In this document: positions 7,101-63,988 of the stretch, in pieces
Layout of the letters: every line of letters starts with the position of its first letter
Numbering within the stretch: the first letter of the stretch is position 1
Source of the DNA: Owenia fusiformis
Taxonomy: Eukaryota > Annelida > Polychaeta > Sabellida > Oweniidae
DNA length: 64,000 nt
Direction: 5' to 3'
NCBI GenBank assembly: GCA_903813345.2
Contig: CAIIXF020000001.1
Location: forward strand, 61,490,270-61,554,269
Position numbers and translations under genes: made by a program
The notes under the pieces: generated by a model
The model's input: the letters and a program-made list of their open reading frames with translations, nothing else
The model's database searches: none
What the model was told of the DNA's origin: nothing

Positions 7101-10100
7101 AAGTATACATGTTTGCTTTTGGCTATCTCCCAAGTCATCGTGACATGACATTTTTGTATTCATTTAAGTAACATACACGTACTCGTACACTTGAACTCTT
7201 GTAGTTTACTCGATTGATTAATTGATCGAATGTTATGTTAGGCTTTTGCAAATTAAAAGTTTTGTTTAAACGGATGGTCATCTCTAGGTATTCATGGTCA
7301 AACCACCGGTTAGCTAAAGTATGGTCTTTCTCAGGTCCTGAAATACTCGATTAGTACCTCAGGATTAGTTCAAACCAAAGTTATACAATATAGCAATGCC
7401 TTCGATTTCTCGCAAGTCATCTGTTGGTCCTCCTTGTGAGTTCACACCAACATGCGAAATTTGATCAATTAAATCTATCGCATTTCATAAACATATCCAA
7501 TGTGCTCTTGAATTCTAATGAATTGAGGTTTCATCATTGTAGGTTTCACGGCCTCTTTTACTATCTCAAGAAGTTTAAGATAAATAAAGAGGAATTCTGA
7601 TAAATCAAAAGGCGTTTTTACATTTTTTTACAAACTCGTTCAAAAGTCTAGTTAATGTTTTTTAGACTATCTGTTCGTTAAGTTTTCTGGAATGAAGTTC
7701 TGAAGAGAACAACTTACCAATACATAACCAATATTTCAAATTGGCTGTATCATGTGAGTAATGAGGCTGTATCGTGTGAGTAATGAGGCTGTATCACTTG
7801 AGCAATGAGGCTATATCATGTGAGTAATGAGTCTGTATCATATGTGCAATGAGGCTGTATCATGTGAGCAATGAGGCTGTGTCATGTGAGTAATGAGGCT
7901 GTATCATGTAAGTAATGAGGCTGTGTCATGTGAGTAATGAGGCTGTGTCATGTGAGTAATGAGGCTGTGTCATGTGAGTAATGAGGCTGTGTCATGTGAG
8001 TAATGAGGCTGTGTCATGTGAGTAATGAGGCTGTATCATGTAAGTAATGAGGTTATATCATGTAAGTAATGAGGCTATATCATGTGAGTAATGAGGCTGT
8101 GTCATGTGAGTAATGAGGCTGTGTCATGTGAGTAATGAGGCTGTGTCATGTGAGTAATGAGGCTGTGTCATGTGAGTAATGAGGCTGTATCATGTAAGTA
8201 ATGAGGTTATATCATGTGAGCAATGAGGCTGTGTCATGTGAGCAATGAGGCTGTGTCATGTGAGTAATGAGGCTGTATCATGTGAGTAGTGAAGCTGTAT
8301 CATGTAAGTAATGAGGCTATATCATGTGAGTAATGAGGTTATATCATGTGAGCAATGAGGCTGTGTCATGTGAGCAATGAGGCTGTGTCATGTGAGCAAT
8401 GAGGCTGTATCATGTGAGTAGTGAAGCTGTATCATGTAAGTAATGAGGCTATATCATGTGAGTAATGAGGCTGTATCATATGAGCAATGAGGCTGTGTCA
8501 TGTGAGCAATGAGGCTGTATCATGTGAGTAGTGAAGCTGTATCATGTAAGTAATGAGGCTATATCATGTGATCAACGAGGCTGTATCATGTGAGTAATGA
8601 GGATGTGTCATGTGAGTAATGAGGCTGTATCATGTAAGTAATGAGGTTATATCATGTGAGCAAGGAGGCTGTATCACGTGAGCAATGAGGATGTGTCATG
8701 TGAGTAATGAGGCTGTATCATGTAAGTAATGAGGCTATATCATTTGAGCAATGAGGCTGTGTCATGTGAGTAATGAGACTGTGTCATGTGAGTAATGAGG
8801 CTGTATCATGTAAGTAATGAGGTTATATCATGTGAGCAATGAGGCTGTGTCATGCGAGTAATGAGGCTGTGTCATGTGAGTAATGAGGCTGTATCATGTA
8901 AGTAATGAGGTTATATCATGTGAGCAATGAGGCTGTGTCATGTGAGTAATGAGGATGTGTCATGTGAGTAATGAGGCTGTATCATGTGAGTAGTGAAGCT
9001 GTATCATGTGAGTAATGAGGCTATATCATGTGAGTAATGTTGCTATATCATGTGAGCAATGATAGTGATTGAAAGAATTCCACTCATAGACCAGTACTTC
9101 CAAGGAACACTGTACTTCTTGGTAAAGTGGAATTCTTAAAAAATCAATTAAACACTGTAATATCATTTACAGTATTACGTGTATTACGTGTACAGTGCGT
9201 CCCAAAAAAACGCAACAAGCAAAAACATTGTAAAACAAAAAAACTAGTGATGATAACATCAATTTCATCTAGTTTACCATGAAACCCCATGTCTCTTCTT
9301 TCCAATGATATGTCATTTGTTCATATGTGATCATGGATCACTGAAAAACATTGTTTCTTCGCGCATGGGTGAAAAGGCCTGTATCATAAATCAACTGATC
9401 CTTATTGTGCAATCAGTTAAATAATTTTGTAATTGGGGCTGGGAATTAAATTCTGGTCACAAGACATAACAAAAGTTTCAGATTTAGGATTTAGATTTAC
9501 TCAGAAAAAGTATATAACTTTGAGTGTTCATCAGTATCCTTTATCTGTTTATGGTCCAGTTAACGTTTCAAACATTATGGGAAAAGTGGCATAAACAGTC
9601 CCAATCATTATCTGTTTTCTAATGAAAGATTATTCAAGAAAGATTACATTCCCCGTTACCCTGCGTGCAGAGTCTAGTTAAACTACAAGACGAAGCTCTC
9701 TTTTAAGAAGTGAAGTCAAACGAATGCAAATGGTGATTCCCCCTTCACATGGTCACCATTTCTCTACACACAGAGATTAGCTCGTCACTCCATGTCACAA
9801 CACTGGCGGAGAGTTGCAACCGCATTGGTGATTCGATCTCTGTGCAAGTTCTAAAACTTGGTCCAGAGCAGATTTTGGCCCGTTGTGCAAAAGGAATTAT
9901 CATTCAGTTGTCTGTGGTCATATATGAATAAATGTCATACCATTGGAAAGATGAGGCACATGGCGTCATGGTAACCTAAACGAAATCGATGTAATCATCA
10001 CTGGCATGGCAATGTTTTTACTCGTTTTTAGGCGTTTATTTGGGACACACTGAATGTCGATTTGGTTTTGCAATCCATTGCGTTGGGATGGCTTTAAATT

Positions 10101-13100
10101 GATTTTAACTTTCAATTATTGCCCTTTGTTGTGGTTCATCAATTTTTCTATATTTACTCCATAGGAAGAAAAGGGTGGTGATCAAGAAGTAGCTGCCATG
10201 GAGGAAGGCCACCCTCCACCGGGTTAGTGTTTTTTATTTAATATTTTGGTATAGTAATACCACAAATAAATGTAACCTCATTAAGGGAACATCAACCAAT
10301 TCAAAAGTTATGATTTTGTATACTAACCAGATATCGCTGGACCCGAATCCACAATACACATTCAAATTTTTCTCATTCTCCTTTTGTAACCGCAAAATAC
10401 TCATGTATAAAGTATCTGTTCTAAAAAAGATTTAGGAAATATCTTCAAATTCAAAATTGACCAATAGCTACGAATCCAGCTTTTTACTTTATCCAAGAAC
10501 TTTATCCAAGGGATTGGGTTACTATCTACTAATTGAATGCATCTCTTTATGTCTTCAGTGTTTGATTGGCTAAGTGAACCTCCTCGAATCATTGATACTG
10601 GAAAAGCCTGGTTGGTGCCTGGCCCAGTCCAAGATGTGGAAGGTACTTCATTGATCATATGGGCTTTTAAAATCATACATATTGTGTCGGTATTTACGAA
10701 TTGGGAATAACTGTTTCAGCACCAGTGCTTTGTTTTCCCAATGTATGGTAGTAGTCAAAATAAAGTCTGGGTGCCAGGCTATACAAAGCTACCCTTTGCC
10801 GTGCCTTTGACTTGTTCTTTCAATGCTCAAGCTTCATTTTCCCTCATTGAAGCCCATCGTTCAGCAGTAGACGAACTACCACTCGGAATATTCCAAAATG
10901 ATTTTACAGTTTTGGTCTACTGACCTAGAAAGTTAAAAGTCCTTTTATGGGGGGGGGGTTTAAATATGAAATAAATGTACAGATTGTGGATTTTGTGGAA
11001 GTCTTACTAAAAATCCAACTACCAAATGGTTAATTGTTTGAATCGTGCATTCCTATTTAATATTTTTGTATTCTTTTAAATAGTTTGATTTCGCACATCT
11101 AAAAGATATCCTCGGGGAATGGGATTTTATTTATCCTCTATAGTCTAAGACACGTTGACATTATTCTTGGTTTTAGTCGAGCTGTGTAGTGTTATGAACT
11201 CAGGTTCGGTTCAGCCAGAAGAAGGCGATTCTGAATCTGATGAAGAGCTCGAGGATTATGAGACAGAAAACCTCTTCTGTCCAACTGGTTACAGATGTCA
11301 GATTGACCATTTAGGTGACCTTGACAATGGCATTCCGGATACTGGTCACTGCGTCCTTGAAGGTAGGAAATCCGGGAAATGGAAATTGATATTGTTATAT
11401 TAGATGCTAAGTTGAATCTAACGTCCATAATACGGTAAAGCAGCAGGGGCTACACAGTTGATCAAAGTGTTTCATTTAACTATGCATGGATTTTGTTCAT
11501 AGTTTGTCTCGGAAGTTTCATTTTCCACTGTTTAGTTCTGAATGATCAAACCGTTAACGATTTTACTCCTGCACATGACCCATGTGGCCATGTTTATGTT
11601 TCCCATAGACGTTTTCCCTTCTGTAAGGGTTAATATTGCTTTGGTTTAACACTTGATCCGGGAGTTCAACACATGGTTGAGAACCTGTTAGTAGTATATG
11701 GCGTCCATTTCGACCTGCAACCGGCACCGGTACTTGTGCACCATGGTGCACCGGAAGTGACGCAATAGGTCAGGTGCACCGGAAGTGACGTCATAGATCA
11801 CGTGGTAAGGTGATGCACCGGAAGTGGAAGTGACGTCATAGGTCACATGGTTACTGATATAACTGGTCAAAGGTTACTGATAAGAGAGAGATAATAAACT
11901 GATAACACACTGAAAAAGATGGTCAAATGTTACTGATAATTGATAAGAGAGAGATAATAAACTGATAAGACAGTGAAAAAGATAACTACCATGGTTTCTG
12001 ATATAACTGGACAAAGGTTACTGATAATTGATAAAAGAACATAGGTTTGAGTTGAATGCACAGAAATGATGTCATACGTCACATGGTTACTGATATAACT
12101 GGTCAAAGGTTACTGATAACTGATAAGAGAGAGCTCAATTGATAAGATAATCAAACAAACACTGTTAAGGTAACCTGGTGACTATGTGATAAACTATCTT
12201 GTCTACTTCATGGATGTTTCATTGTTATAGGTAAAAGGTGGATAACAAACTGATAAAACAGTAAAAAAGATAACTGCAGAAACATTTCAACCAATCAGGT
12301 TTTGACTTGCAGAATTATTTTAACCAATCAGAGTACAGTATGTTTTAACCAATCAGAGTACAGTATATTTTAACCAATCAGGTTTCGAGATGCAGAATTA
12401 TTTTAACCAATCAGGGGATAGTATGCTTGTATAATTCGAATCAATCGAGGGACAGTATATTTTCATCCAATCAGAAAATGGCAAAATCAACCAATGAGAG
12501 AAATGTTCCAACAATCAGATTATAACTTGCAGAATTATTTTAACCAAACATAGTACAGCATGGTAGAAATTTGACCATTTAGAGATATGTTCCACCACTA
12601 AACCAGTTCAGAAATTATAAATGCCAGTTCAGACCGGTATTGTTATAACCAAAAAGTCTCCTGAGTTATTTAAGAATATTTTTTAAATTGTCACTGTTGA
12701 TCAATTTCTGCTTATTTTTTTCACCAAACGATCACTTGATTCTTACTCCCGAGTAATTTTAGAGCATTTTTACAATCTTCACGCTTGAGTGATTTTGGGT
12801 GATTCGTGGAGTTTGAGGCATTCTTTTACCAAACGATCACTTGATTCTTACTCCTAAGTCATTTAAGAGTATTTTTTCAGTCGTCATGGTTGAGTGATTT
12901 CAGTCACTGTTGATCGATTTCTGCTAATTTTTGGAGTTTAAGGCATTTTCACAAAATAGACACCCACCCACTATACAAAATAACACCCTTTAATAGGCAT
13001 CTGTTAATTTAACATGCCACTGATAAAAATATAAACCCCTACAAAATAAATAAAAAATGCTAACGTTAACAGTTTTACAGCAGAACATTTTCGACCAATC

Positions 13101-13189
13101 AAAGTGTATATGCAAATGAGCTGCAGAACCATTTCAATCAATCAGATCAGATTTTTGCACTCTTTGACCCCACCGCCGCCGCCGCCCCC

Positions 13190-13256
<67 letters not shown>

Positions 13257-13365
13257 CCATCTTTACTTTTTACCGGGTCTGATTGCAATTTGATAGAAAA
13301 CTTATTTAAATATAAATATCACCTGCCATTAAAGGCACAACGGGTGGCGGCGGTGGCGGCGGTGG

Positions 13366-13413
<48 letters not shown>

Positions 13414-16368
13414 CGGTGGCGGCGGCGGCGGCGGTTGCGGCGGCGGCGGTGGCGGCGGCGGTGGCGGCGGCGGCGGTGGGGTCAAAGAGTGCAAAAATCT
13501 GATCTGATTGATTGAAATGGTTCTGCAGCTCATTTGCATATACACTTTGATTGGTCGAAAATGTTCTGCTGTAAAACTGTTAACGTTAGCATTTTTTATT
13601 TATTTTGTAGGGGTTTATATTTTTATCAGTGGCATGTTAAATTAACAGATGCCTATTAAAGGGTGTTATTTTGTATAGTGGGTGGGTGTCTATTTTGTGA
13701 AAATGCCTTAAACTCCAAAAATTAGCAGAAATCGATCAACAGTGACTGAAATCACTCAACCATGACGACTGAAAAAATACTCTTAAATGACTTAGGAGTA
13801 AGAATCAAGTGATCGTTTGGTAAAAGAATGCCTCAAACTCCACGAATCACCCAAAATCACTCAAGCGTGAAGATTGTAAAAATGCTCTAAAATTACTCGG
13901 GAGTAAGAATCAAGTGATCGTTTGGTGAAAAAAATAAGCAGAAATTGATCAACAGTGACAATTTAAAAAATATTCTTAAATAACTCAGGAGACTTTTTGG
14001 TTATAACAATACCGGTCTGAACTGGCATTTATAATTTCTGAACTGGTTTAGTGGTGGAACATATCTCTAAATGGTCAAATTTCTACCATGCTGTACTATG
14101 TTTGGTTAAAATAATTCTGCAAGTTATAATCTGATTGTTGGAACATTTCTCTCATTGGTTGATTTTGCCATTTTCTGATTGGATGAAAATATACTGTCCC
14201 TCGATTGATTCGAATTATACAAGCATACTATCCCCTGATTGGTTAAAATAATTCTGCATCTCGAAACCTGATTGGTTAAAATATACTGTACTCTGATTGG
14301 TTAAAACATACTGTACTCTGATTGGTTAAAATAATTCTGCAAGTCAAAACCTGATTGGTTGAAATGTTTCTGCAGTTATCTTTTTTACTGTTTTATCAGT
14401 TTGTTATCCACCTTTTACCTATAACAATGAAACATCCATGAAGTAGACAAGATAGTTTATCACATAGTCACCAGGTTACCTTAACAGTGTTTGTTTGATT
14501 ATCTTATCAATTGAGCTCTCTCTTATCAGTTATCAGTAACCTTTGACCAGTTATATCAGTAACCATGTGACGTATGACATCATTTCTGTGCATTCAACTC
14601 AAACCTATGTTCTTTTATCAATTATCAGTAACCTTTGTCCAGTTATATCAGAAACCATGGTAGTTATCTTTTTCACTGTCTTATCAGTTTATTATCTCTC
14701 TCTTATCAATTATCAGTAACCTTTGACCATCTTTTTCAGTGTGTTATCAGTTTATTATCTCTCTCTTATCAGTAACCTTTGACCAGTTATATCAGTAACC
14801 ATGTGACCTATGACGTCACTTCCACTTCCGGTGCATCACCTTACCACGTGATCTATGACGTCACTTCCGGTGCACCTGACCTATTGCGTCACTTCCGGTG
14901 CACCATGGTGCACAAGTACCGGTGCCGGTTGCAGGTCGAAATGGACGCCATATACTACTCCTGTTCAAGAGACGGAGATGTATTGCTGAAGATGTTTTGA
15001 TATATAGATGGCGTTGAGGAACCAGAAGATATTGCAGACGACGCAGTTCCAACTACCACTACTTGTCTTTTTGAAGGGACTACCTACACCACTGGCGACA
15101 CCTTCCGCTATGAGAATAATAACTGGTACGTTTACACAAAATCATAGTCCGACTAAACAGATATGAACGACTTCTACAGGGTGTCCAAAAAATTGTACCG
15201 AGATATACCATTGCACAGAATTGGTCGAATAGCCGATAGATGTCATTCATTGATTAAACATGACGTCATATTTGAGATCTTAAGATAAATCTGACGTCAT
15301 GACGTCAGTGCCATAGAAACTGAGATTGTCTTATTTTATTTTGACGTCATTCCAATGTAATGAATCAGTTATATCACCAAAAGTTGGATAATTCCAAAAT
15401 TATTTCGCCGAAAAGTGTTTTGTGCCAGTAATTTACTCTAAATGGATTTGGAAAATTCGTCTTTCAACGTAACAGAAACCTGAGATGAATAAGGCTCCGC
15501 GTGTATTTTACTACTCCTACCACACCGTTGAAGTTTACTCCTTTCATCATTTTGACGTCATTTTGCATTGACTTCAATGGCGTAATAGGTGATTTTTGTT
15601 AATTTATTTCAAAGTTATTTCGCCGAAAATTTGTGACACCTAGATTGTTCAAAGTGGGTTAGATTGATAGGCATTAGTACCTAGTTACAGGAACCTGAGA
15701 TGAATAAGGTGCCATTTCAAAGTCCCGCTTTCTGTTAACGTTCAAAAGTTTTCAACTGAGGAAATCCCATTGACTTTTAAAAACCGGGAAGTCAAGGTTT
15801 TGAGCATCCCCATAGTATTTTTGGAAAAATTCTGGGCAATGCACGAAATAACTCTACTTTGAGTGATGACAATTATCATCATCTGGAAGTTGCACCAGTT
15901 CCGCATCAAACACGATGGAGTACGGTTAATTTAGAGCATGGTACAGCTGTAGTACTATAGTAATTCATACGTTTCTGTGAAATTTTACTGCTAATTGAAA
16001 AATTAATTCTTTTATCTACTTTTTTCGATGTAGGAAAAAATTCGGCCTTTTCAATTCATCCGGTTATACATTTTGGACACCTTGTATACAAACCATAATT
16101 TCTAGATAATACGTGGAATTATGTGTTCAGGATTCATAAGACGGTTGCCTCAACATATTTGGCAATAAAACATTAAACTAGCTATAGGTATGTACATTGA
16201 ACTAGCTATACATGTAGGTATGTATCTAGAAACATGTCCGGGTATGTAATGGTGGAGCAGCCGGGACGTGTACTCCCACTTGGTTATTGTCTGTACTCGT
16301 TCGTAATTGTGTGCTTCGTTTGTTTCAGTTTCTGTCGGAATGGAGAGGTCGATTGCATCGTTCATTAA
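4117..16368 (+). CDS. Small secreted acidic protein with a C-terminal VWC-like cysteine segment (six exons)
   Basis: The coding exons are 4117-4227, 10165-10222, 10559-10642, 11177-11362, 15008-15125 and 16329-16368. All have GT-AG borders and phases that join without conflict into 199 codons including TAA (198 aa). Exon 1 encodes a signal peptide starting MASIIVSLLVFWAMVVSPAS. The middle is very acidic (exon 4 carries EEGDSESDEELEDYE). Two cysteine modules follow: FCPTGYRC...GHCV in exon 4, and a TCLFEGTTYTTGDTF...CFCRNGEVDC segment across exons 5-6 that has the look of the first half of a von Willebrand type C domain. The protein is probably extracellular; its function is not evident. Introns are 0.3-5.9 kb and crowded with mobile elements (4571-6235, 9193-10052, 11690-14959, 15177-16084) and a minisatellite. 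A foldback insertion ends 48 bp before exon 5. Exon structure is inferred, but the phase agreement across five introns is strong. Confidence 0.72.
4571..6235. mobile_element. Non-autonomous TIR DNA transposon, 1665 bp, 51-bp perfect TIRs
   Basis: The terminal inverted repeats at 4571-4621 and 6185-6235 are identical over 51 bp and begin CACGGGGGATAAGC. Both ends are flanked by ATCTA (4566-4570 and 6236-6240), a 5-bp target duplication. The interior has no transposase reading frame, so it is a deletion derivative or a MITE. A CAC start with a 5-bp duplication is compatible with the Transib group, but the inner TIR does not match its consensus well. It lies in intron 1 of the secreted-protein gene. 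Confidence 0.8.
6241..7740. other. Intronic stretch, no gene seen
   Basis: AT-rich intron 1 sequence. It includes a pair of related segments at about 6600-6640 and 6690-6720 (tttacttcataa and ttatgaagtaaa), a small inverted repeat. Nothing coding was recognised. Confidence 0.4.
7747..9062. repeat. 22-bp minisatellite, about 60 copies
   Basis: The unit is close to GGCTGTGTCATGTGAGTAAT plus GA, 22 bp, repeated head to tail for about 1.3 kb. Variants (gtatc or gtgtc, gtgag or gtaag, gtaat or gcaat) are shuffled into a few higher-order runs. It lies entirely in intron 1 of the secreted-protein gene. Each copy contains gtgagt or gtaagt, a consensus 5' splice-site word. Confidence 0.95.
9193..10052. 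mobile_element. Mariner-type non-autonomous element, 860 bp
   Basis: The left end reads TA then CAGTGCGTCCCAAAAAAACG. The right end is its near complement (cgtttatttgggacacactg), giving imperfect TIRs of about 21 bp. A TA precedes the left end; the right flank is aa, so the duplication has decayed on that side. No transposase motif is present. It ends 112 bp before exon 2 of the secreted-protein gene. Confidence 0.65.
11690..14959. mobile_element. Foldback element: 3.27 kb near-perfect palindrome with 6-bp target duplication
   Basis: Every position x from 11690 pairs with 26649-x, so two arms of about 1.5-1.6 kb are inverted copies with very few mismatches in the parts compared. The ends read AGTAGTATATGGCG, and CCTGTT flanks both sides (11684-11689 and 14960-14965), a true insertion signature that argues against an assembly fold. 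Each arm holds short direct repeats: about seven ttaaccaatcag CCAAT-type words, several gtgacgtcataggtcac CRE-type words and runs of ctgataagagag. The centre is a short unique spacer (13259-13344) between two GCC/GGC triplet tracts. No protein is encoded. A 5'-AG start with a 6-bp duplication is shared with Polinton integrase products among others, but the origin is not determined. Confidence 0.9.
13171..13480. repeat. Paired (GCC)n and (GGC)n tracts at the palindrome centre
   Basis: 13171-13258 is (CCG/CCA)n and about 13345-13480 is its complement, longer by about 48 bp, separated by 86 bp of ordinary sequence. The polyproline and polyalanine reading frames here are artefacts of the triplet repeat. 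The unequal lengths mean the innermost part of the foldback is the only strongly asymmetric segment. Confidence 0.9.
15177..16084. mobile_element. Mariner-type non-autonomous element, 908 bp
   Basis: It is bounded by TA dinucleotides (15175-15176 and 16085-16086). The imperfect TIRs begin CAGGGTGTCCAAAAAAT on the left and CAAGGTGTCCAAAATGT on the complement of the right. The interior has repeated tgacgtcat words and pieces of the phrase acctgagatgaataagg twice (about 15478 and 15690). No transposase was recognised. It lies in the last intron of the secreted-protein gene. Confidence 0.7.
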
Positions 16369-24389: not shown

Positions 24390-25137
24390 TCAAGATTTAA
24401 GTGGGATTGACATTGATATACATGTAGCTCTGAATTGTTTACATTTAGTGGGATTGACATTGATGTACATGTAGCTCTGAATTGTTTACATTTAGTGGGA
24501 TGACATTGATGTACATGTAGTTCGGAATTGTTTACATTTAGTGGGATGACATTGATGTACATGTAGCTCTGAATTGTTTACATTTAGTGGGATTGACATT
24601 GATGTACATGTAGCTCTGAATTGTTTACATTTAGTGGGATGACATTGATGTACATGTAGCTCTGAATTGTTTACATTTAGTGGGATGACATTGATGTACA
24701 TGTAGCTCTGAATTGTTTACATTTAGTGGGATTGACATTGTGTACATGTAGCTCTGAATTGTTTACATTTAATGGGATGACATTGATGTACATGTAGCTC
24801 TGAATTGTTTACATTTAGTGGGATTGACATTGATGTACATGTAGTTCGGAATTGTTTACATTTAGTGGGATTGACATTAATGTACATGTAGCTCTGAATT
24901 GTTTACATTTAGTGGGATGACATTGATGTACACTTAGCTCTGAATTGTTTACATTTAGTGGGATGACATTGATGTACATGTAGCTCTGAATTGTTTACAT
25001 TTAGTGGGATGACATTGATGTACATGTAGCTCTGAATTGTTTACATTTAGTGGAATGACATTGATGTACATGTAGCTCGGAATTGTTTACATTTAGTGGG
25101 ATGACATTGATGTACATGTAGCTCTGAATTGGTTACA
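24390..25137. repeat. 46-bp minisatellite, about 16 copies
   Basis: Head-to-tail units of about 46 bp containing gggatgacattgatgtacat and gtagctctgaattgtttaca, with one-base length variants (gattgac or gatgac). It begins about 390 bp after the translin stop codon and may be part of its 3' UTR. Confidence 0.95.
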
Positions 25138-25792
25138 TCAAGGCAAAGATTCATTGGAAAAATAAGATCTTATAAGATCGTTACTTCAGTGGAAATAACA
25201 TGGCAGGGTTTTACAAAGTTCCCTTAAACTTGAATATTCATCAGTTTTGCTGGTTCACTTTTCATATTATCCTTATGTATCTGATAGTTATACAAATTAA
25301 AATATGTCCAGTAAAAGAAAATAGTAGACCTAGAAGTCACATTTTCAAAGAAAATTAAATTTTCAAAGTTGATAATCTCTTTTCAAAACCATATTTCTTG
25401 ATGTAATTTTACATGTACATTCCATATATGACATCAGTTTGACTGGCTTTTGAATTTTAAATGACGTAAATCAAGATTATTTCTACTCGCATCAAAGATA
25501 TTTTGGAAATTATTAATAGTGCAGCTTTATAAGCATCGTTGTCTTAAAGGAGAATATTACTCTCCAAAACTTAAATGAAATATAAGAAATACAAATAAAC
25601 ATTCGAGAAAACGTTTTGTTTACATTGTTTGAGAAAACATGCAAAATATATGGGAATACCAAGACCTAAAGAGAAAATTGTTTTAATCTAAGTACATGTA
25701 CTGTACCAAGTATGGACAAAGTAATCGGACACATGTTTGCAGAAAGTGCTGTTCATTTGTGAATGCAGCATGGAAGCAAATCATTGCACTTT

Positions 25793-27038: not shown

Positions 27039-30000
27039 TCATTCTTGAATGAAATCTTGGAGTTCACTGGCATTTTGTATAAGTCTCTTGAGATATGGTT
27101 GTCTTTCTACATCTGGCATGTGCTTCAACTCATTGTATCGGACCTGGAATTCATGGGGACAATATCTATAAGCAATATTGAAAATGAAATAAATTAGGTT
27201 ATTCTAATTTCATCATCCCTTAATTTATTAATATAATATTAGAAAATAGTTCACTGCATGAATTCCTAAACAACAGAGGGCCAGGCAAATATGTAGATCA
27301 TATAAAACATTTTTTCTGGAATTCTGATGACAACATTTATGTGACACCCAACCAGACAGATGCACGCATCCATGCAAAAGTGTGATTAAAATGTTTGGTA
27401 AAAACTTGGTAAAAGGGGTAGAAATATGTAGAGAGAGAATAATCTGGGATATGATCAGAAGGGGATCTGCATTTATCATCCTCTGGATAAATGTAATATT
27501 CAGAACCTCCAATAGGATAATCTCTATATCTTACCACCACTGGGGAGTATCCCATATGTTTGAGGAGTCTGATGTAGAACATGAACCTCCCTCTCAGCAT
27601 GTGTATATTCTTATAGAAATGGCTATTTGTAAACATCAGGACTGCAACACTGTAAAAAATATAAATCAAACAAATAAGGGAATAAATATTTCTGGGGACA
27701 TATAAATCTCCTCTTAAAGCCTCATAGAGAATTGGACTAATTAGTTTGTCTCCTTTGTCAAATATGTGATGCTTTGTTGTACACTGGAGCTACAGACTTT
27801 TCTGACAATATCTACCATTAAGGAAATGTTTGTAGTTTATTCTAGAATCCTAAGAGGCATAAGTGCCATGGAAAACATTATTTAGTAAATAAGGAATCTT
27901 GTCTGGGCCTCATTTTGCGACTAGAGGCGCAATATTTTTCACATACTAATTATACATGTGTGAGAAGTAATAACAATAAAGCCATACTAAAAGAACAATA
28001 GTAATATCATGGTGGCTGGCCTTAAAGGTGCAATAATTAGAACAGGGGGGCCATTCAACGATCATCGACCATTGTCAAAATATAACCAGAACAACGGCAA
28101 CGCCAAAGCGTAGCGAATCCCATCGAACAGAAATGGCTGGCATTTTTACATACGAAATATAGCAAATATCATAAAATAACACCCATATGAAAGGCCACCA
28201 TTTTTAAAAAAGTTGATCACTAGCCAAGTTGTCATCAGAAGAAGCAATATGCTTTTAAGTAGCCACATATAAAATTGTTAAAAAATCGCCAATGCTGGCC
28301 ATATTTTAAAATGGCCGCTTACTACCCAAAATTCATTAGACAGTATGCAATCCTTACTTGTATTCACATATCAAATGTGAACAAAATCGCTCTATTACTT
28401 TTTGAGTTATAATAAAAAATGTAAAATAACACACATAAAAATGGTGGCCATTTTTTAAAATGGCTGACTACTCCCCAAAGTTTTATTAGACAATGTGCCA
28501 TGCTTAAAGTATTCACATATCAAATATGAACAAAATCGCTACAATACTTTTCGAGTTATAGCAAAAAATGTAAAAATGACAGCCATTTTTTGAAATGGCT
28601 GCCTACTACCCAAAGTGTCATTAGACAGTGTGCCATGCTTATAGTATTCACATATAAAATATGAACAAAATCGCTCTACTACTTTTTGAGTTATAGTAAA
28701 AAATGTAAACTATCACACATAAAAATGACGGCAATTTTTCAAAATGGCCACCTACTACCCAAAATGTCATTAGACATTGTGCCATGCTTAAAGTATTCAC
28801 ATACCAAATATGATGGATGTATGTATCTTTTATTCCCGATTTCAAATCGGATTTCATATAAACTAATTACATTGTTAGATAAATACAATAAACATAAAAC
28901 ATAAACATAAACAAGGTGACAACATATTTACAATCTTTAAAAGTAATATAATCTTCAAAATGGCCGCCTACTACCCAAAATGTCTTTAGACATTGTGCCA
29001 TGCTTAAAGAATTCACATACCAAATATGAACAAAATCGCTCCACTACTTTTCAAGTTACAGCAAAAATTGTAAAATGACGTGCAAAGGCAGCCATTTTTC
29101 AAGATGGCTGCCATGTATTTCTTCTATATTTACATTTCTAGCTTAATCAATGTCCTATATAACTTTTTTACATTTAAAATATATTGCTATTACAGTTTTA
29201 TATGCAGTACCTAAATTACTGTAAAATCGGCACTAAAATGGCCGCCATTTTTAAATGAGCGGCCATTTTGAAAATCGGTTTTAAAGCAGAACTTCTACCC
29301 TCATTAGGTATATGTGTACAAAATATGAACAAAATCGGGCCAATGGTATTTGAGTTATTGCCCAGACGGACGGACGGACATACGTACGGATGGACGGACG
29401 GACGGACGGATGGAGGCGTTCCCTATATCCCTCCGAACTTCGTTCAATGGGATAATTAAGTTTGGATATTTCATCAAGAATAGCATATATTTTTTATTAT
29501 CTTCAAAGAAACCCCCTGGATGAACATTATTTCAGCTGATATCCCTCTTGAAACGTGTGGGATCTTAAAAATATATAAGTGGGACTCCCTTTATAGAAGC
29601 TTTGAACTGAATTTACACTTCTTAGTGCTGAAATTGATAGTTTATCCATACATTTTAAGAAAATAGGTATGTCAAAGAAGATGTTAAGCCAAATATTGAC
29701 CTGATATCTCAGAAATTTTTTTTTTTTCGAGTTTCTCTCCTTGTTGCCCCTTTAAGTTGGACAAAGCACAAGGGAAAACTAAAGAGTCTCTTGTAGCAAA
29801 TATATGCCGAGACCATTGGTTCTATTGAAGTCTATTATATATTTCTTCAGGTCAGTACACATACATAACGCTCTCAAATACCCCCTTTATCTAATTAGGT
29901 TTCATGTACTCACACTTTATGGTCCTCTGGCACTGGATGTAGACTTTGTTTATTTCTGAGTGCAAACTCTGAAACAAAAACAAGAACACCAAGTTAAGTA

Positions 30001-33000
30001 ATTGAAGGGAAACAATAGAGCTTCACAAAAAACTGGAAAATGTAAAGAAGACCATTTACATTTGTTAACATAATTTTTCATGAAATTTTCAAAATGATAA
30101 GAATTTTGATAATGAGTTAAACAAAATATTTTATGCTGTAAAAGTGTAAGTGTAAAAAGGGAAATATAAAAATAAATAAGAAAGTACGCTCAAGAGGTTT
30201 GTGAAGTTATGATTAGAACCAGTAATAAAATAATATAAATGTTATATTCACTGATTCACTGATATATTCACAACAATGGCTGATCATGAGTTGTATAAAG
30301 TCTTTGCATTGCATCAACATATAACTTAAAAATCAAAGTGTTGAGTAAAGTATAAATCTAAATTCTGATTACATATTGTTACATATGAGAATCCCTCATA
30401 ATATTGTTATTATCAAAACAAAGAGAGTAATTGATGGAGTCAAGCAATCTAGGTTTATAAACAAAAGTTGTAATGTAAACTTTGAAAAGCAACAAGGTCA
30501 TCCAGGCAGAATAAAGCTGCTGGTAACCAAAAGTTATACAAAGTGAAGGATTCAGATTTATAAGAATGAGAACTACAATGGTTCACAATAGCATTATCCT
30601 TCAATAGAATACAATATAGTCTCATTTAGAAACCAGACCCACACGATGGCTACTTTTCTAGATCTTGTTACAGAACTTGGTTAGAAACATGAGTTTTATG
30701 GTGAAGATCAGTTACTTTCTTTGATCCACCACTGTGTCCTATGAACTGCGTATGTCTCTGAGTATAGAGTTCACAAATACTTGTCAATCTTAGATATGGA
30801 GAGAATGGAAAAAATAGGAAGCAAGGTTGTGTTTTTATGAAAGCTCTCAATGAGCAACACAATGAGATGGTGAGACCTCCAAATGGAAGAAAACAAAGGG
30901 CAGTAGTTAAATATATGATTGATTAGGGTGAGTGTTATTAACATTTAATAGAAGACTCATAACTTCTCATTTGTTAATCTCATTCAATTTAATAGATCCC
31001 AAAGAAATCTTTGTGTTACACTTTTAAGAAATGGACTTCATGAAAGTTTGAATTTTCTTGCTTCCAGTTCAAAGATGATATATCATATCGAGAAATGCGG
31101 TGAAAATGTCATGTCTTCTCTAATATCAAAGATGATATATCATATCGAGCAATGGGGTTAAAATGTCATGTCTTTATTGTAGAAGACCACAAAGATGCTA
31201 CTGCTGAATTTGGGCCTCATATTGCTGGTGAGGAGTTGTGTGGCTCATAACATACCCCTCCATGAAACTGTAAACACACTGGCAAAGCAACTTATGATGC
31301 AACAACTCATGTTTGAGGAGAGAATACGCAGCGAAGGAGACAGCGGAATAAAACAGTGTAGAATCAACAATGGCGGTACAAAGCCCTACCACATGCCGTC
31401 TTATTCATCAAAGAAAGGAGCTGCGTCATGTCATGATCATTCAAACCATAAAAGAACACTTGGTATGGGGGAGTTTGAAGCTGTATTAAACGGTGTGGAA
31501 TTCAGAACCAGGCATAATGACTACTTATTACGCATGCCCAGCCGAACATCAAGTGAATATCATGCCACCGAAGACATCCCTTTTCCTGAAGTCCCGCCAA
31601 GTGTGTTAGCAAAGAAAACAGTGAAGGGGCAAATCGAAGAGATGCAAAAATATTTCAAGGCTTTCCACACAGATTATACCTATGAAAGGGATTACAGGAA
31701 ATATTTCAAGCCTGTTCTATGCTATCTTGAAGGGGCCTGGACTACAGACCCAGATGACATCATTACTGAGCCCTTTAAAAGTGATCGCAATTGGTTAGAT
31801 GCAAACAGTTGGGAAGATCTTGAACAAAAGATACAATTCAACGCATACACAGGACGTAAAAGCAATCTTGAAAATTATGCATTCTTACCACGGAAAATCA
31901 TTGAACTTGTAAATGGCACTATCCCAGTGACCGCACAGTGGAATTATCGCATATTATGCCATCCTTTAAAGGAATTCCTAAATCCAAACAGGCTGAGGTT
32001 GATCGATGATGTAGCAACACGTATGATGTTCTACAACAATGTAGATCAACACTTGGAGTCAAGAAGGGCGAGGTTTCAGCTGAACACTAAAGACACCCCA
32101 TGGATTAATTACAAATTATATAATGATAAAATGGCTCAACATAGGGAACTCCTGGATGACTTAATGGAGGAAATCCCCGGAAAGGATAACTATGGGGCGT
32201 ACCATGAGGATAATGTATACGGCCGTAAAACACACAAACTGAAGATTGATTATGTGAAAAATGTTGGCTATTACCACCGTTGGTATCAGAGTGATAAGAA
32301 AGGGCCTATGGGACTTTTATTACGCCACCGTGGGTTTGCAGACAAAAATATATTCATGGCAAAGACACGACAGCCAAATGTTGCACCTATTGAGGTTGAG
32401 GATTGCAAGGGGAAGCGATCAAAGAGAGTGTGTAGAACATACAGACAAAGATGGACTTATGCAATTCCACTTGAAATTGTTTACATGTCTCCCTTGTTGA
32501 AATGGAATCCATATGATATACCATACAAAGGGGATGCCAGCTCCCCTGAAGGACAGACTGTTGAGAAAGGTGGTAAGCGCAATGGAGGTTTCACAAAAGC
32601 ATCTGCATACAATGGGACACATAATCAACTGTACTACCACACACCAGCAAAATTTTTTGAGGGACGAGTCGTTGATGTGGATAAAGCAGACACATACAGA
32701 GCTTCAACAGGTGTCCTGGACATGCATGGTATCGTGCGATCAATGACATCATCGGGGATACGAGTCCTACTTCCAAACATCCCTAACGTGGGAATTGTAC
32801 GTCAACGGTATCCCATAATGCCCCTTCACAGTGAAGGCAGCCCTATATGGAAGGAACTCCACGCACTTAAGGACATTGTCATGGACATGACCAAATATGG
32901 ATATATGATGAAGAAACTACCAAATGGTAAAAAACCGGACCTACACGACTACTTGTATCTTAAAGACTTTGTAAACACAAGAATTAATCTTGGATATGAC

Positions 33001-36000
33001 TTAGCAAATGATACTCCACACTTTCATCATTTCTATTTGGGTGAGGATGAAAGGGCAACATTACGTAGCGGACAGCCTGTCAGTATGATCACATCAGTGG
33101 CTAACAACCATAACCATTTAGTCACTGTGAGGCCTTGGGGAAGGAATGGAGGGGGTTATAAGATGTTTAGGTGTGATGGAGAAGAAATCTGTTGGGATGG
33201 CCACTCAACTATAAATAAACTGTATTATCACTAACAACTGAAAACATAATACAGGGTGTCAAAAAACAACGGCACCCCCCTCCACAGCAAAAACTCCTTA
33301 ATGTCACATGGAGTGTCATATCTCATTTGAAAGATAATTTAATTCTGGAGTTACTCATAAAATTTCATTTAATAAAACTTTAGAATAAAAAAGCTACATT
33401 GTTTCGAAGTTTGCTTCTTCAGTACTTTGTTTGCTACTTTGTTACTGGTTTAAGGTCAAATCTTGGAAATGATTAATATTTAGGAAATAGCCCAGATCTC
33501 ATCTACGCTGAGTATATATGTTCAATCGTGAAAGACCGGGTAGGAGAACTGATGGATAGGGGGCCTCTTGAAAATGGACACAGTAAGGATGTATTTCTGA
33601 AGAATATGCGGAAAATGCTTAAAGGTTTACGTTATGCTGAACCTTTCTTCGAATCTTCATTGAAATCATATTCATCCAGATTAGCTGCTTTACGAGCAGC
33701 AAGTGGTGGCCGTACCACCTACTAACAATCGGCTGTAAATCTGTAAAATTATATCATACAAAGCTGAAATTTCTTAAGTAACTCCAGAATTAAATTGTCT
33801 TTAAAATGAGATATGACGCATTATGTAATATTAAGTACATGTTGCTGTAGAGGGGGGTGCCGTTGTTTTTTGACATCCTGTAGATTAAAAGATGTTAAGG
33901 TCAGTCAGCTATCTATAGGCGTAGCTTACCATGATGTCAAAATATATTCAAAATGTAAAACATCCACATTCTCAATAATACAAGAGATATATATATTAAA
34001 CAACCAGAAGAAGTGAGTAGCTCCCACAATTCTTTCATATTCTATCGTATTCGGGGATTCAATCATATTGCAGGATGTATCACATGAACAATCATGAGCA
34101 CTAGCTCATTCAGTGCTGCGCATGCGTAAAGAAAAAATTGAAATCTTGGAAATGGCGTTTATTTCAGTTTGACATCATTTCAACATCATCATTTCAAAAC
34201 TATGGTAATACTATTGAAGTTACTCGATCCAAACTTGTAGAGAATACTCAACATTGTGAGATCCATTTCAATGGCAAATGAGGCCTGTTTATAAAATTAA
34301 TTATCGAACCTGCCGAATAGTACGGGTCATCTTTGGGAAATCTCCCCCTGGCAAGCAACTTTCAAAAATGATTATGTCCAGTGAAACCTGTATATGTGAA
34401 CACCTGTCTTATACAAACACCTCTCAATGTGAACATTTCTAGGTCCCAAATTGTCATCCCCAATTGACTTACATGTTTATAAAACCTTGAAATGTGAAAA
34501 CCTGTTAATCCAAACTCTTCCGGCATGTACAGGAGGTATGCAAATAAGACAGGTTTTACTGTACTGACAAAACACTTTCACACAAAGAAGGTTTGCGTGA
34601 ATACCAACCCACTTCTGAAAATGATGCTTCTACAAATTGAAATACTTAAGTAAAATACAATGCTATTTAGTTATTTAGAGGACACACCATTTTAAGTTGA
34701 CAGATGTAAGCATTATGGTAGATGATATTCAGAAAATATATGATATTGTACAATTCTTACTTAATTCAGACTAAATTCATATTTACTTGTATCGACTAGT
34801 TGACCTCTTTTAACCAAACACTCTCAATGTGAACATTTCTTGGTCCCAAATACTGTACTGACAAAACACTTTGACAGTAAATTCGTACTTACTTGTACCA
34901 ACTAGGTGACTGGTTCCCTCTTCCATCCAAAGATTAACAGGGTCATTATTGCCATCCAACACAAGTACATTGTCTATATATAAACCATACTTTGTTAACA
35001 ATCCTGAGCGCACAAATGTTTCACAACCAAATGATGAATTGATCAGATTCTTCATTTTAGACCAGGTTTTGGAATTTGGCTTTGGGGAAAACTGCTGGGC
35101 CAGATCAGTTGGTATTCTGAAATGTAAAGAATCAAAGTGAAATTGTGAAATTGACTTTCTCCAAGTGTATATTGTCAGATTCAATTGACAGGCTCATCTT
35201 TACATGTGCCATATTTGGAATGAAACATATGTCTGCTAACGTACGTCTGATCAATTCTTCGCCTTTATTTCTCAGCTAAGATCCATTTTTAGCATGAACA
35301 ACTTTTCATGTAAGTGATCCAATATGAGATGCTTTGTGATTTTTAATGAGAATTATCAAAATGAAATTTTAGCTATATTTCTGAATCAGAATACGATTGC
35401 AAGACAGAAAATATAATAGAAAATAGAAATAACAAATATTACCAAGGGAACTTGTTTGAAATTTCAATAAAATTATGGATTTGACGAATCTGATGTCTGT
35501 ATTCTCAGGATATTATCTCTTAAATATCTCTTTAAGAAATCAATAAAATTGATATATAGGGGAGTGCAGTGTAAAAGCCTCACCTCATTGTGGTTAAATC
35601 TCCGTGCTCAACTCTGGCGGCCATCTTTAACAAACACAGGTTGAATGTCAACTGTCTTAAATTTCTGGCAACTAAATTCAAAAACAAAAGTATTCAACTT
35701 AATGCATGTGTTATACATTTCAATAAAGTGGAAATTATCAGGCCTGACCTTGATACTATTCATTAACTTAATGTAAAAAAACAACAGTATTCATTTCAAT
35801 GTGATTGTTTAATGAAAACACATAACGAAATATACACGAGAGTAAACTTGAAACATAATCATAAGAATGCAAGTATACTTTTAACATAACAATGTGTGTT
35901 CTCACATTACAATATGTCACTCTTGGAACAAACATCACAAATGACACAAATCATATTGTTAGTACCTCAACTGAAATACTCGATTCTGATTGGTTGATTA

Positions 36001-39000
36001 GCGGTCAACAATATGTACTGTTGACCACTAATAGGTATTATTATATACCCAATATGTAACACTAATCCTGATTGGTCAATACCTAGTCACGTGTTCCGAA
36101 ATAGATTTACTATTTCCCTCGGAAAGTTATATTCCCTCAAATGTGACGTCAGCGGGAATATACATTTGAACTATTGCCCGCTGACGTCACAATTGCAACT
36201 TCTATTACCCTTGGAAACGTCTGCGCATCATCACTGCGCAGAAGAAAAACAGAAAAATGGAGGATGAGCACAAACACAAATCAACTCCGTTCACCATGAC
36301 AGACGTGCGTGAACGATACAATATAAGCAACGTGTACAAAGTTCCCTAAGCTCAATACGTCTGTGTAATTTCAAGTGATTTTATTATCTATTCCACGTGT
36401 TAAACGCGATTGAATTTGTCAAGTGAGAGTCTCAGAGGCAAAAATTTCTGTTGAGCATCTGATGACGTCACAGCTTATAATGCTAACAATGGACCCGGCA
36501 CCCGGAGAGGGGGCTTTCTAAACCTTTTTGGCCTTCGCAGAGGAAACGGGACAAGAGTCAGTATAGGGTATATAATAAAACAAATAGTGACTGCCTAATT
36601 TCGAGCAATAGTGTAAATGATTTCCCCTTGGGAATATCCTCTACAATGTACTATATGTACTCGGGGAAATAATTTACACTATTGCCCTCAATGGCAGTCA
36701 CTATTTGTATAATGTTGACCGCTACTTTTGAAAAATAAGTTTCATGACGTCATATTGTTTAAAGAAAAAACATGGTTTTGCCGGTTGACCTCTGTCATAA
36801 ATACAATATTGAATTTAATTTCTATTTAGAAATGTGTTAATTATTACCTTCCATGTCGGGGGAGGAACACATGTCTTTGACATCTTTGGTTTGTAGTTTT
36901 ATGGCTAAGCATTGAAATAGTGTAGTGGAATATACTCCTCGTATTGCAAGATCTTTCATTACTCTGGCAAGCTGATCTAAAACATGAAAATGGAGATAAC
37001 AAAATGAGAAAAGTATTATTTGAGGTTGACTGTAGAATGCATTCACTAAGTTGAAACTTTCTTTAAAGATTATAATACACAATGTTCTTTGTTAGGGCAG
37101 GTAAGGCCAGTCAACTCAACAATTGTCTAACTTCAAACTTCTGCCCAATATTCCACCTAAAAGATAAATCTCAAACTTTGTCTGTATTCATAACTGTCTG
37201 AACAATGTTCTATGTTTACAATATGTAACCAGAACAACGGCAACGCCAAAGCGTAGCGAATCCCATCGAACAGAAATGGCTGGCATTTTTACAAACGAAG
37301 CGCAAATATCATAAAACAACACACCAGAAAGGCCACCATTTTCAAAGTGGTTGCTCAATAGCCAAGTTGTCATCAGTAGAAATAATATGCTTTTAAGTAG
37401 CCACCTCTAAAATTTTTGAAAAATCGCACACATGCTTGTAAAATAACACACATAAAAATTGTGGCCATTTTTCAAAATGGCCGACTACTCCCTAAAGTTT
37501 TATTCGACAATGTGCCATGCTTAAAGTATTCACATATCAATTATGAACAAAATCGCTCCACTACTTTTCGAGTTATAGTGAAATATGTTAAAATGGCGGC
37601 CATTTTTCAAAATTGTTTTCAAAATGGCCACCTTCTACCAAAAGTGTCATAGGACAGTGTGCCATGCTTATAGTATTCACATACCAAATATGAACAAAAT
37701 CGCTCCACTTCTTTTCAAGTTATAGTGAAATATGTTAAAATGTCGGCCATTTTTCAAAATTTTTTTCAAAATGGCCGCCTTCTACCAAAAGTGTCATAGG
37801 ACAGTGTGCCATGCTTATAGTATTCACATACCAAATATGAACAAAATCGCTCCACTACTTTTCGAGTTATAGTAAAATACGTTAAAATGGTGGCCATTTT
37901 TCAAAATGGCCGCCTCCTACCAAAAGTGTCATTAGACAGCGAGCCATGCTTATAGTATTCACATACCAAATATGAACAAAATCGCTCCACTACTTCTTGA
38001 GTTACAGCAAAAATCGTAAAATAACGAGTAAAGGCCGCCATTTTTCAAGATGGCTGCCATGTGCTTCTTTAATATCTACATTTCTAGCTTTATCAAAGTC
38101 CTATATAATTTTTTTACATTTAAAACCTATTGCTATTACAGTTTTACATATTGCACCTAAATTACATTAAAATCGGCACTAAAATGGCCGCCATTTTTGA
38201 ATGAGCGGCCATTTTGAAAATCGGCTTTCGAGCAGAACTTCTTCCCCCATAGGGTATATGTGTACAAAATATGAACAAAATCGGGCTAACGGTATTTGAG
38301 TTATTGCCCGGATGGACAGACAGACGGACGGACGGACGGACGTACGTACAGACGTACGTACGGACGGACGGAGGCGTTCCCTATATCCCTCCGAACTTCG
38401 TTCGATGGGATAAAAATTTAAACTTCTAATACCTGCTACACAACAGGGATGCCAAGGTACTTTGACAAGAAGAGCATCATAACAAAGGATCTTAGTACAT
38501 GTGTAACATCTTGTCACAAAGCCCTTTATTAAATGCAACTTTACCCTGCTGACGTTACAAGTTCATTTAATATCTATAGATTCCATATACTTAGATACAA
38601 TACTAACCTACAGAGAAAGCCACCCAAAGTGAATCTTCCATTCTGCTAACAATATGGCCAAGCACTTCTGACGCACCCTGCACTTTCCCATTCAGCTCAC
38701 CCAGTACTCTCACAATCATACTGACATCATCTGATGTCAGCTCTTCAAATACACTTATGTCATCTAGCAAGCTGCTACAAAGGTGATTCACGATACCCAC
38801 ATGGCGGAATCTAAAATGTGTTAGAATGTCACACACTTTCAGTGTGTTTTCAACACCCCATTGTTCATTGATCACTTTTTGGCAAATGTTTCTATAAAGA
38901 ATTGTGTGGTACATATTAAGTTTGAGGCAACATTGAAGTATATCCAAAACAGAGACTGGAAATAGTACATCTAGTTTTGATATTGCCTCTCTTGTACACA

Positions 39001-62779: not shown

Positions 62780-62932
62780 ACTTTCACTTTCACTTTCGGT
62801 TTCCCGGAAGCCCCGCCCACTTTACGTCATAGTTGCGCATGCGCACCATTCATTTTTCTACCATTTTGAAAGTCACACAAAATTTTCAAAAGTGCGATAA
62901 ATTGGTCCAAAAACAAGCGTTACAAGTCTACT
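62780..62932 (+). promoter_or_regulatory. TATA-less promoter of the SR-rich gene
   Basis: Within about 150 bp of the ATG, in order: cccggaagc (ETS/GABP-type), ccccgcccac (GC box), tttacgtcata (CRE-type), tgcgcatgcgca (a perfect NRF-1 palindrome) and taccattttgaa (YY1-like). This clustered set is typical of broadly expressed genes. No TATA box is present. Confidence 0.6.
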
Positions 62933-63988
62933 ATGTCGACGAATACAACGCAGTTAGATACAACAGAAGGGGTTAATACCCAGGGTGATCCACGAGTTAG
63001 CCCAGCGCGCTCGAACAAAGGTAAATCACCGGTTGTGAAGTCTGAAGTTCTAGAAAAAGACCGGCGTGGCCGTAGAGAAAGTCGAAGTACTTCAATTTCT
63101 AGTAGGTCAGACTCTGACACTTCGTTTAAAAGACGTAAAAAACATCGTCACAGAGATTCGGCTTCTCCTAAACGGCGACGTCACAGAACTAAATCTATTT
63201 CCTCAAGTCCGAGGGGTAGATACAGATCGAGATCCAGGTCTAGATCCAGGTCTAGATCAAGGAGATCACGTTCTCATACCTCAAGTCCGAGGGTGAGATA
63301 CAGATCTAAAGATAGACTTCACAATCGTAAAAGGTCTAGATCTAAGTCCAGGTCTAGATACAAGTACAAACATAGATCAAAGTCTAGGTCTAGATCAAAG
63401 TCTTTGTCCTCAAGTCCGAGGAAAAGACACAAATCTTCACATCATAGATCTGCTTATAGGTCTCATAGATCTCCTTCTTTAAGTCCAAAGAAGAGATACT
63501 ATCGTAAACAATCTCCTTCTATAAGTCCTAAAAGGAGACGTTACAGAAATGATAAAGATTCACCCAGATACGATAAGTATCAATGGGAGAGAGATCAATT
63601 TATCAATCCGAGAATTGATCAGAGACAGGAAATGTTTCAGAATTTCTTGCAAGACCAGCAAGTTCTGAGAGCGATGTATGCAGGATCTGCATACATACCT
63701 CAAAATATTTCCAAGAAAACACAGTCAAGGCCATGGTCTGTGAATGATGATCACACTCAAGTAAATGATGATCACACACACATTCAAATAAATGATGATC
63801 ATCAATTTAAATCACCTCCTTCTCTTACAAGAACCATTTCTCTCAATAGAGACGATGATTCAGTTACTATAGAGTTGGAGAATGATGGTGAACAGGAAGA
63901 TCCTGATACTAAGCCATCAAATGAGGTGGCAAGAGCCAAATTAGAATTTTTGGCAGCCACTGAAGTCGTTAAAAAAATCTTTCCCTGA
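62933..63988 (+). CDS. Serine/arginine-rich protein, 351 aa
   Basis: A single open frame from 62933 to the stop at 63988, 12 bp before the window end. Residues 1-45 are Thr/Ser-rich. Residues about 46-215 form an RS domain with long R-S runs and repeated SSSPR and SLSPKKR phrases, like splicing-factor RS domains phosphorylated by SR kinases. Residues 216-265 are charged with RQEMFQNFLQDQQ. Residues about 270-300 contain three VNDDHT-type repeats. The C-terminus reads VARAKLEFLAATEVVKKIFP. No RNA-recognition motif is visible, so it is not a classical SR splicing factor. The upstream promoter supports a host gene. ORF1 of a retroelement is an alternative that cannot be excluded, because the downstream sequence is outside the window. 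Confidence 0.6.
   Translation: MSTNTTQLDTTEGVNTQGDPRVSPARSNKGKSPVVKSEVLEKDRRGRRESRSTSISSRSDSDTSFKRRKKHRHRDSASPKRRRHRTKSISSSPRGRYRSRSRSRSRSRSRRSRSHTSSPRVRYRSKDRLHNRKRSRSKSRSRYKYKHRSKSRSRSKSLSSSPRKRHKSSHHRSAYRSHRSPSLSPKKRYYRKQSPSISPKRRRYRNDKDSPRYDKYQWERDQFINPRIDQRQEMFQNFLQDQQVLRAMYAGSAYIPQNISKKTQSRPWSVNDDHTQVNDDHTHIQINDDHQFKSPPSLTRTISLNRDDDSVTIELENDGEQEDPDTKPSNEVARAKLEFLAATEVVKKIFP

Follow-up and report, generated by a model that had tools for sequence, protein, structure and literature searches.

A gene-less foldback element in Owenia fusiformis is probably a Polinton palindrome copied from one end

Introduction

The described elements closest to the one reported here are the Polintons, also called Mavericks. 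In vertebrates, as far as the available part of PMC8097293 describes them, Mavericks have the end motif 5'-(AGT)2//(ACT)2-3' with perfect 6-bp duplications, intact ones are 12.7-24.6 kb long, and as of that paper no Polinton particles had been observed. Here we analyzed a stretch of 64,000 nucleotides from the annelid Owenia fusiformis (contig CAIIXF020000001.1, positions 61,490,270 to 61,554,269 of the forward strand; hereafter the window), which contains a foldback element inserted in the intron of a predicted gene. Like Polintons, this element has a 6-bp duplication, (AGT)2...(ACT)2 ends and long terminal inverted repeats (TIRs), and its TIR is common to an integrase-bearing element of 13.4 kb. 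Unlike them, the window copy is gene-less and measures 3.3 kb. We propose that it is a non-autonomous Polinton palindrome, very probably made by self-templated copying of one end.

Other described systems share some of these features. Galileo and Foldback elements also consist of little besides long inverted repeats with internal repeats, and the part of PMC3573991 available to us gives 98-100% identity between the TIRs within one Galileo copy; they differ from the present element, which has 6-bp duplications and Polinton relatives. Snapback defective genomes of adeno-associated virus are likewise duplex snapback forms of a linear genome, derived partly from one end (PMC8235507, in part), but those are parvovirus particles and the elements described here are germline insertions. 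It was suggested earlier that Tlr elements are non-autonomous Polinton derivatives, which is disputed in the accessible text of PMC4028283, and related virus groups are described in PMC11071296 and PMC11071308, whose accessible sections contain no such foldback or satellite. Among the titles and abstract openings listed by searches of the open-access literature, a scope that leaves out most subscription journals and Repbase, none dealt with foldbacks derived from Polintons or with two-gene satellites of them; as support for their novelty this negative is weak.

Results

The window element consists of two inverted arms of 1,569 bp each, aligned with 10 mismatches and no gaps (99.4% identity) and separated by a spacer of 132 bp. 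The left arm (11690-13258, plus strand) starts with AGTAGTATATGGCG and the right arm (13391-14959, minus strand) terminates in ATATACTACT, the outermost bases being AGTAGT...ACTACT. A preliminary description of this DNA had reported near-identical arms of about 1.6 kb; the near-identity holds, while the length is slightly smaller. The same description had taken the 6-bp duplication as the mark of a genuine insertion, and CCTGTT is indeed present on both sides (11684-11689 and 14960-14965, plus strand). Nine of the ten mismatches fall at arm positions 1498-1561, within a (GCC)n tract that forms the inner end of the left arm (13172-13258, plus strand), and the remaining one is at arm position 239. 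With the differences so confined, the insertion would be young, provided that the arms were identical at insertion. An 84-bp hinge (13259-13342, plus strand) separates this tract from the right-side (GCC)n tract (13343-13477, minus strand), which is longer and has its first 48 bp within the spacer. The hinge recurs unchanged in the gene-less copy L026, at 96% identity in L014, and as a part match in L015 and L029. The only coding content of the window copy is a low-complexity frame.

The preliminary description had proposed a search for further copies in the same genome. Queried with the left arm plus a portion of the hinge, the 498-Mb genome from which the window comes gave at least 214 DNA matches (40 of 88 candidates scored). 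The end pattern AGTAGTATANGSCNNNNNTTTCGA matched 56 times, against once for the reversed control, and 44 of these matches could be paired manually into 22 inverted pairs of 3.3-23.1 kb. This count is a lower bound, since the pattern misses one end variant found in several of the fetched copies. Matching 6-bp duplications flank 14 of the 17 two-ended copies that were fetched.

The Polinton/Maverick family is marked by (AGT)2...(ACT)2 or (AG)3...(CT)3 ends, a 6-bp duplication, a TIR in common with an element encoding an rve integrase, and its own polymerase, integrase, ATPase, protease and capsid genes. The window element has AGTAGT...ACTACT, the duplication CCTGTT, and a TIR in common with the integrase-encoding element at C5:3929-17338. 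None of the listed genes is present in the window copy, and we therefore class it as a non-autonomous derivative and not as a Polinton.

The element at C5:3929-17338 (loci L037 and L038), a putative helper, is 13.4 kb long, with AGTAGT/ACTACT-type ends and the duplication CAGAGC on both sides. Its TIRs, of about 606 bp, are 95.8% alike; they share 89% identity with the window arm over 347 columns, and 86-95% with other fetched copies in the best stretch. In the window, the Polinton-TIR stretch lies at 12091-12424 of the left arm (plus strand), where it contains CCAATCA words, and at 14225-14558 of the right arm (minus strand). The integrase of the C5 element was recognized as rve (40.6 bits, cut-off 32.6) and its ATPase as Pox_A32, just above the cut-off (23.0 bits against 22.8). 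One polymerase piece weakly matches phrog_1907, a DNA polymerase family (6e-4), and the same piece weakly finds a site 2 kb past a PF03175 match on C4 (26%, E 6.8e-4). With its polymerase in pieces, this copy may be inactive. The protease candidate has no Pfam match, and its similarity to protease structures grouped with relatives of the adenovirus protease reached just E = 0.11. Comparison of the capsid candidates with solved structures found nothing; against PHROGs, the candidate of L038 gave no clear result and that of L047, a second-family element described below, matched one family of unknown function (7.9e-4).

We next compared arms within and between copies. The partner arm of the same copy was the best-scoring arm in 15 of the 18 copies compared. 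In ten copies, own-arm identity was 99.7-100%, as opposed to 88-98% for the best other arm, and copies differ by 2-12% from the nearest other copy.

A second family, with the ends AGTAGATA...CGCCACGGGCC (59 matches, none for the control), yielded 28 manual pairs: one of 14.5 kb, seven of 7.96-8.54 kb, one of 7.2 kb and 19 of 3.3-5.9 kb. Within the largest, a second putative helper at C3:31497900-31512420, 6.8 kb were read (L042); they contain a polymerase part that has a DTDS motif, together with a Pox_A32 ATPase, a chromodomain-bearing rve integrase, a small protein and the beginning of a capsid candidate. A PHROGs search with the L042 polymerase gave no clear result. The 8-kb class is represented by L047 (G000:C9:8132239-8140202; 7,964 bp, duplication AATATT), which carries an integrase, an ATPase, the small protein, a capsid candidate and an adenovirus-type protease (Peptidase_C5, 23.7 bits, cut-off 21.3). 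No further frame of polymerase size was seen in L047, the sole copy read among the seven of this class; the other six pairs (7.97-8.54 kb) are known from their ends alone. The elements L041 and L044, flanked by TACATT and GGTTTT, encode the small protein and the ATPase and no other element frame of at least 90 aa. Between their ATPases (0.0088/0.0172) the changes are too few for a ratio of nonsynonymous to synonymous rates (dN/dS).

Three members of this family, L043, L045 and L046, are palindromic, and each of their arms contains the small gene. Their arms are 99.3, 100 and 100% identical and they lie between the duplications CAGGTA, CGTAAC and AATACC, respectively. In all three, both halves track, with gaps, the left half of the two-gene element L044 inward to about 1.6-2.0 kb; in L043 and L045 the collinearity begins after the first 28 bases. 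These three palindromes are built from one end of a two-gene element. The collinear stretch of L043 ends in a tandem-repeat array, resembling the window hinge in its place between GCC tracts.

Two-gene elements also occur in the family of the window element, where an ATPase and a small protein are present in ten of the 17 two-ended copies and both are missing from the other seven. The ATPase has 476-478 aa when intact, with a C2H2 finger and a P-loop; six of the ten copies have it intact, and in the remaining four it is cut, split or altered. The small protein has 131 aa, counted from the common start. Read by eye and without a profile scan, the 17 copies contained no frame of at least 90 aa resembling an integrase or a polymerase. 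Genome-wide, the ATPase occurs at 19 loci with 87-100% identity, of which 12 are full-length and free of stops, and the next matches reach at most 54% (87 of 289 candidates scored); 19 small-protein loci share 85-100%, 18 without a stop (150 of 594 candidates scored). Median dN/dS was 0.21 for the ATPase (range 0.11-0.43; 32 of 66 pairs kept, 12 intact frames) and 0.19 for the small protein (range 0.07-0.91; 96 of 136 pairs kept, 17 frames). Pairs with dS outside 0.02-2 were dropped; the pairs share history and are not independent, and the two L027 frames are mutual duplicates. These ratios show both genes to be apparently under purifying selection.

The two-gene ATPase scores below the Pfam cut-offs (Adeno_IVa2 20 bits against 21, Pox_A32 16.3 against 22.8), while its relatives in L034, L041, L042 and L047 are above that of Pox_A32. 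The P-loop G.T..GK and a DD pair are common to all seven ATPases aligned, and the two-gene ATPase shares 41% identity with its counterpart in the Polinton L042 and 33% with the one in the C5 Polinton. For the small protein, the nearest sequences outside its own group, among the candidates scored, are at places such as C138 and the C5 Polinton (80% over 82-83 residues); that of L024 is 69% identical to C5 over 104 codons. Judged from these similarities, the ends and the small protein of the two-gene elements look like one lineage, and the ATPase like another. Among viral contigs, a pattern search for ATPase relatives gave 61 matches, none of which was confirmed.

Promoter-like words were counted in 1,476 bp of the arm and compared with 500 shuffles. 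CCAATCA occurs seven times (shuffle mean 0.32) and the cyclic AMP response element (CRE) word TGACGTCA twice (mean 0.03), counts that none of the shuffles reached; the two exact CRE words lie in an outer-end stretch at 11786-11838 (plus strand). The arrays of CCAAT and CRE-type words reported in the preliminary description are thus borne out. Plain CCAAT, with eight occurrences, is weakly enriched (24 of 500 shuffles reach eight), the octamer ATGCAAAT is not above chance (61 of 500 reach its count), and the TTGGC word is absent from the 1,476 bp. These words are not independent, because the arm is internally repetitive. The 606-bp TIR of the C5 Polinton contains six CCAATCA and two TGACGTCA. 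Since none of the 500 shuffles reached the count of either word, for the arm or for this TIR, both words are a property of the Polinton end. The earlier account, which is partly supported, had missed both the membership in the Polinton/Maverick family and these same words in the Polinton TIR.

As for the host gene, the proposed donor (11362/11363) and acceptor (15007/15008) preserve one reading frame, with the split codon G|AT, as judged from the translations. The predicted gene model is plausible for this reason: the exon ending at 11362 and the proposed downstream exon (15008-15138, plus strand, open at least to 15138) share that frame. The 48 bp described between the element and the plausible acceptor correspond to 14960-15007, with the duplication counted in. 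The preliminary description had also proposed that the intron transcript would fold into a duplex open to ADAR or Dicer, and that the branch-point region was narrowed by the element; both would be possible consequences of the insertion.

Elsewhere in the window we noted a tandem array at 7743-9062, with offsets in 22-bp multiples and about 87-90% similarity, and another at 24395-25138, with units of about 46-47 bp that are about 95% alike. A dispersed direct repeat (28954-29455 and 37900-38413) has 87.5% identity over 514 columns. An uninterrupted frame of 683 aa with a signal-like start (31183-33234, plus strand) gave no Pfam match at E up to 0.1, and a frame of 372 aa at 62870-63988 (plus strand) is rich in RS dipeptides.

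Discussion

We consider it very probable that the window foldback is a gene-less, non-autonomous Polinton palindrome that arose when one end served as the template for its own copying. The ends, the duplications, the common TIR, the gene contents, the closer similarity of own arms in most copies, and the one-end palindromes of the second family were observed directly. For the route to the palindrome we infer a supply of integrase and polymerase in trans, protein-primed copying and fold-back priming. Before insertion, linear element DNA would be copied by the protein-primed polymerase of a helper, and strand displacement would release single strands whose ends can fold back. The panhandle behavior of adenovirus-like genomes is an analogue for such folding. 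A strand copied onto itself would yield two arms from one end, that is, a palindrome, and fold-back copying would tend to hold both arms identical round after round, while exchange between copies could still give mixed arms. Insertion by a Polinton integrase acting in trans would leave the 6-bp duplications. Linear strand-displacement copying combined with fold-back would in this way jointly explain the identity of arms, the one-end palindromes and the duplications. The full Polintons, the 8-kb class (with no polymerase frame in the one copy read), the two-gene elements and the palindromes form a series within one genome.

Several observations weigh against this reading. The window copy has no gene, and each enzymatic step is hence one that we infer. 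The polymerase of the C5 helper is fragmented, and this copy may not be the present source of enzymes. Pfam did not recognize the helper polymerase pieces tested, a genome search with PF03175 gave 11 matches and listed neither the C5 nor the C3 helper, and the polymerase part of L042 found no counterpart among solved structures; the helper polymerase is a candidate identified by a motif, one weak PHROG match and its neighborhood. The capsid genes are candidates assigned by position. Matching duplications are absent from three of the 17 two-ended copies (L013, L014 and L027), and in three of the 18 copies compared (L013, L027 and the C2 copy) the own arm is not the best partner. L027, one of the copies without a matching duplication, belongs to a composite. 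The C2 copy (C2:22071536-22094653; L030, L031, L035 and L036), a two-gene copy of 23 kb with a Gypsy-type retroelement inside, has arms that are 89% alike, each nearer to another copy, yet CACAAG flanks it on both sides, as if it had been joined from two subfamilies. From these three copies it follows that arms are not always homogenised, and the unlike arms of the C2 copy require exchange between copies in addition. The one-end origin is legible in the second family only, since the TIR of the window family is about as long as the arm. Finally, the identity of arms could come from gene conversion instead.

As a separate observation, L027 (G000:C10:22415977-22423718) is a 7.7-kb palindrome centred near outer ends, in which two two-gene copies are apparently fused head to head at their termini.

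Gene conversion is the main rival: palindromes would arise and stay identical by conversion or double-strand-break repair between chromosomal arms, as proposed for Galileo, and not through copies made of free element DNA. The exchange between copies seen in the C2 copy favors it, and so does the consulted part of PMC3573991, which proposes template repair for Galileo TIRs alongside their high within-copy identity, and states that inverted-repeat expansion has been reported for Polintons too. All three one-end palindromes read, however, lie between perfect 6-bp duplications, so either they moved as palindromes or the replacement of their far end reached precisely to the flank. In the window, a single base outside the GCC tract differs between the arms, which gives no sign of conversion after insertion, though it is compatible with it. 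Altogether we regard this explanation as unlikely. The long, internally repetitive arms would also suit an ordinary element of the Foldback, Galileo (P), MULE or hAT type that a cut-and-paste transposase had mobilised. These groups make duplications of 7-10 bp, as opposed to the 6 bp found in 14 of 17 copies; the ends and TIR are common to an integrase-bearing Polinton, and reading by eye found no transposase-like frame of at least 90 aa in the 17 copies. We rejected membership in these groups, which is highly improbable. Chimeric reads can create near-perfect palindromes, and a further rival is an assembly or library fold. Against such an artefact stand the distinct flanks behind the 6-bp duplication, the arm difference outside the GCC tract and the 16 further two-ended relatives at other sites, and we rejected it as having next to no chance of being correct.

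What the two-gene elements are is a further question. A helper-dependent satellite has the ends of its helper and is without replication and integration genes, and this is what we found in ten of the 17 copies (frames of at least 90 aa, by eye), as well as in L041 and L044, whose 46-bp ends are the same as those of the 14.5-kb element at C3:31497900-31512420. Virophages and phage satellites are small helper-dependent elements carrying part of the helper's virion-assembly genes, and we draw the likeness to the two-gene relatives; unlike them, the latter keep only the ATPase and the small protein between helper-like ends, and their dependence is presumed. Tentatively, the two-gene elements might be satellites whose own packaging ATPase and small protein are maintained by purifying selection for entry into helper capsids. 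Snapback palindromes, the window element included, would be defective-interfering genomes that parasitise both helpers and satellites and have become fixed in the germ line. An animal genome would then house endogenous virus-like elements in an economy of helpers and satellites. A somewhat doubtful alternative is that they are debris of a Polinton that formerly carried this ATPase, the purifying selection dating from that ancestor. An ATPase of the type found in Polintons such as L042 (about 41% identical), and its integrity in just six of ten copies, speak for debris; against it, no Polinton with this ATPase was found among the candidates scored (at most 54% below the 87-100% loci), and most of the changes behind the dN/dS values fall between one two-gene copy and another. 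Should these elements be satellites, Polinton particles would be expected to form, since in their absence a gene for packaging would be of little use.

Our findings tie a foldback element to Polintons, and the natural series makes the step from linear element to palindrome readable: the full, cut-down and palindromic elements suggest how such palindromes arise. If arms are indeed made identical at insertion, every copy would carry its own clock.
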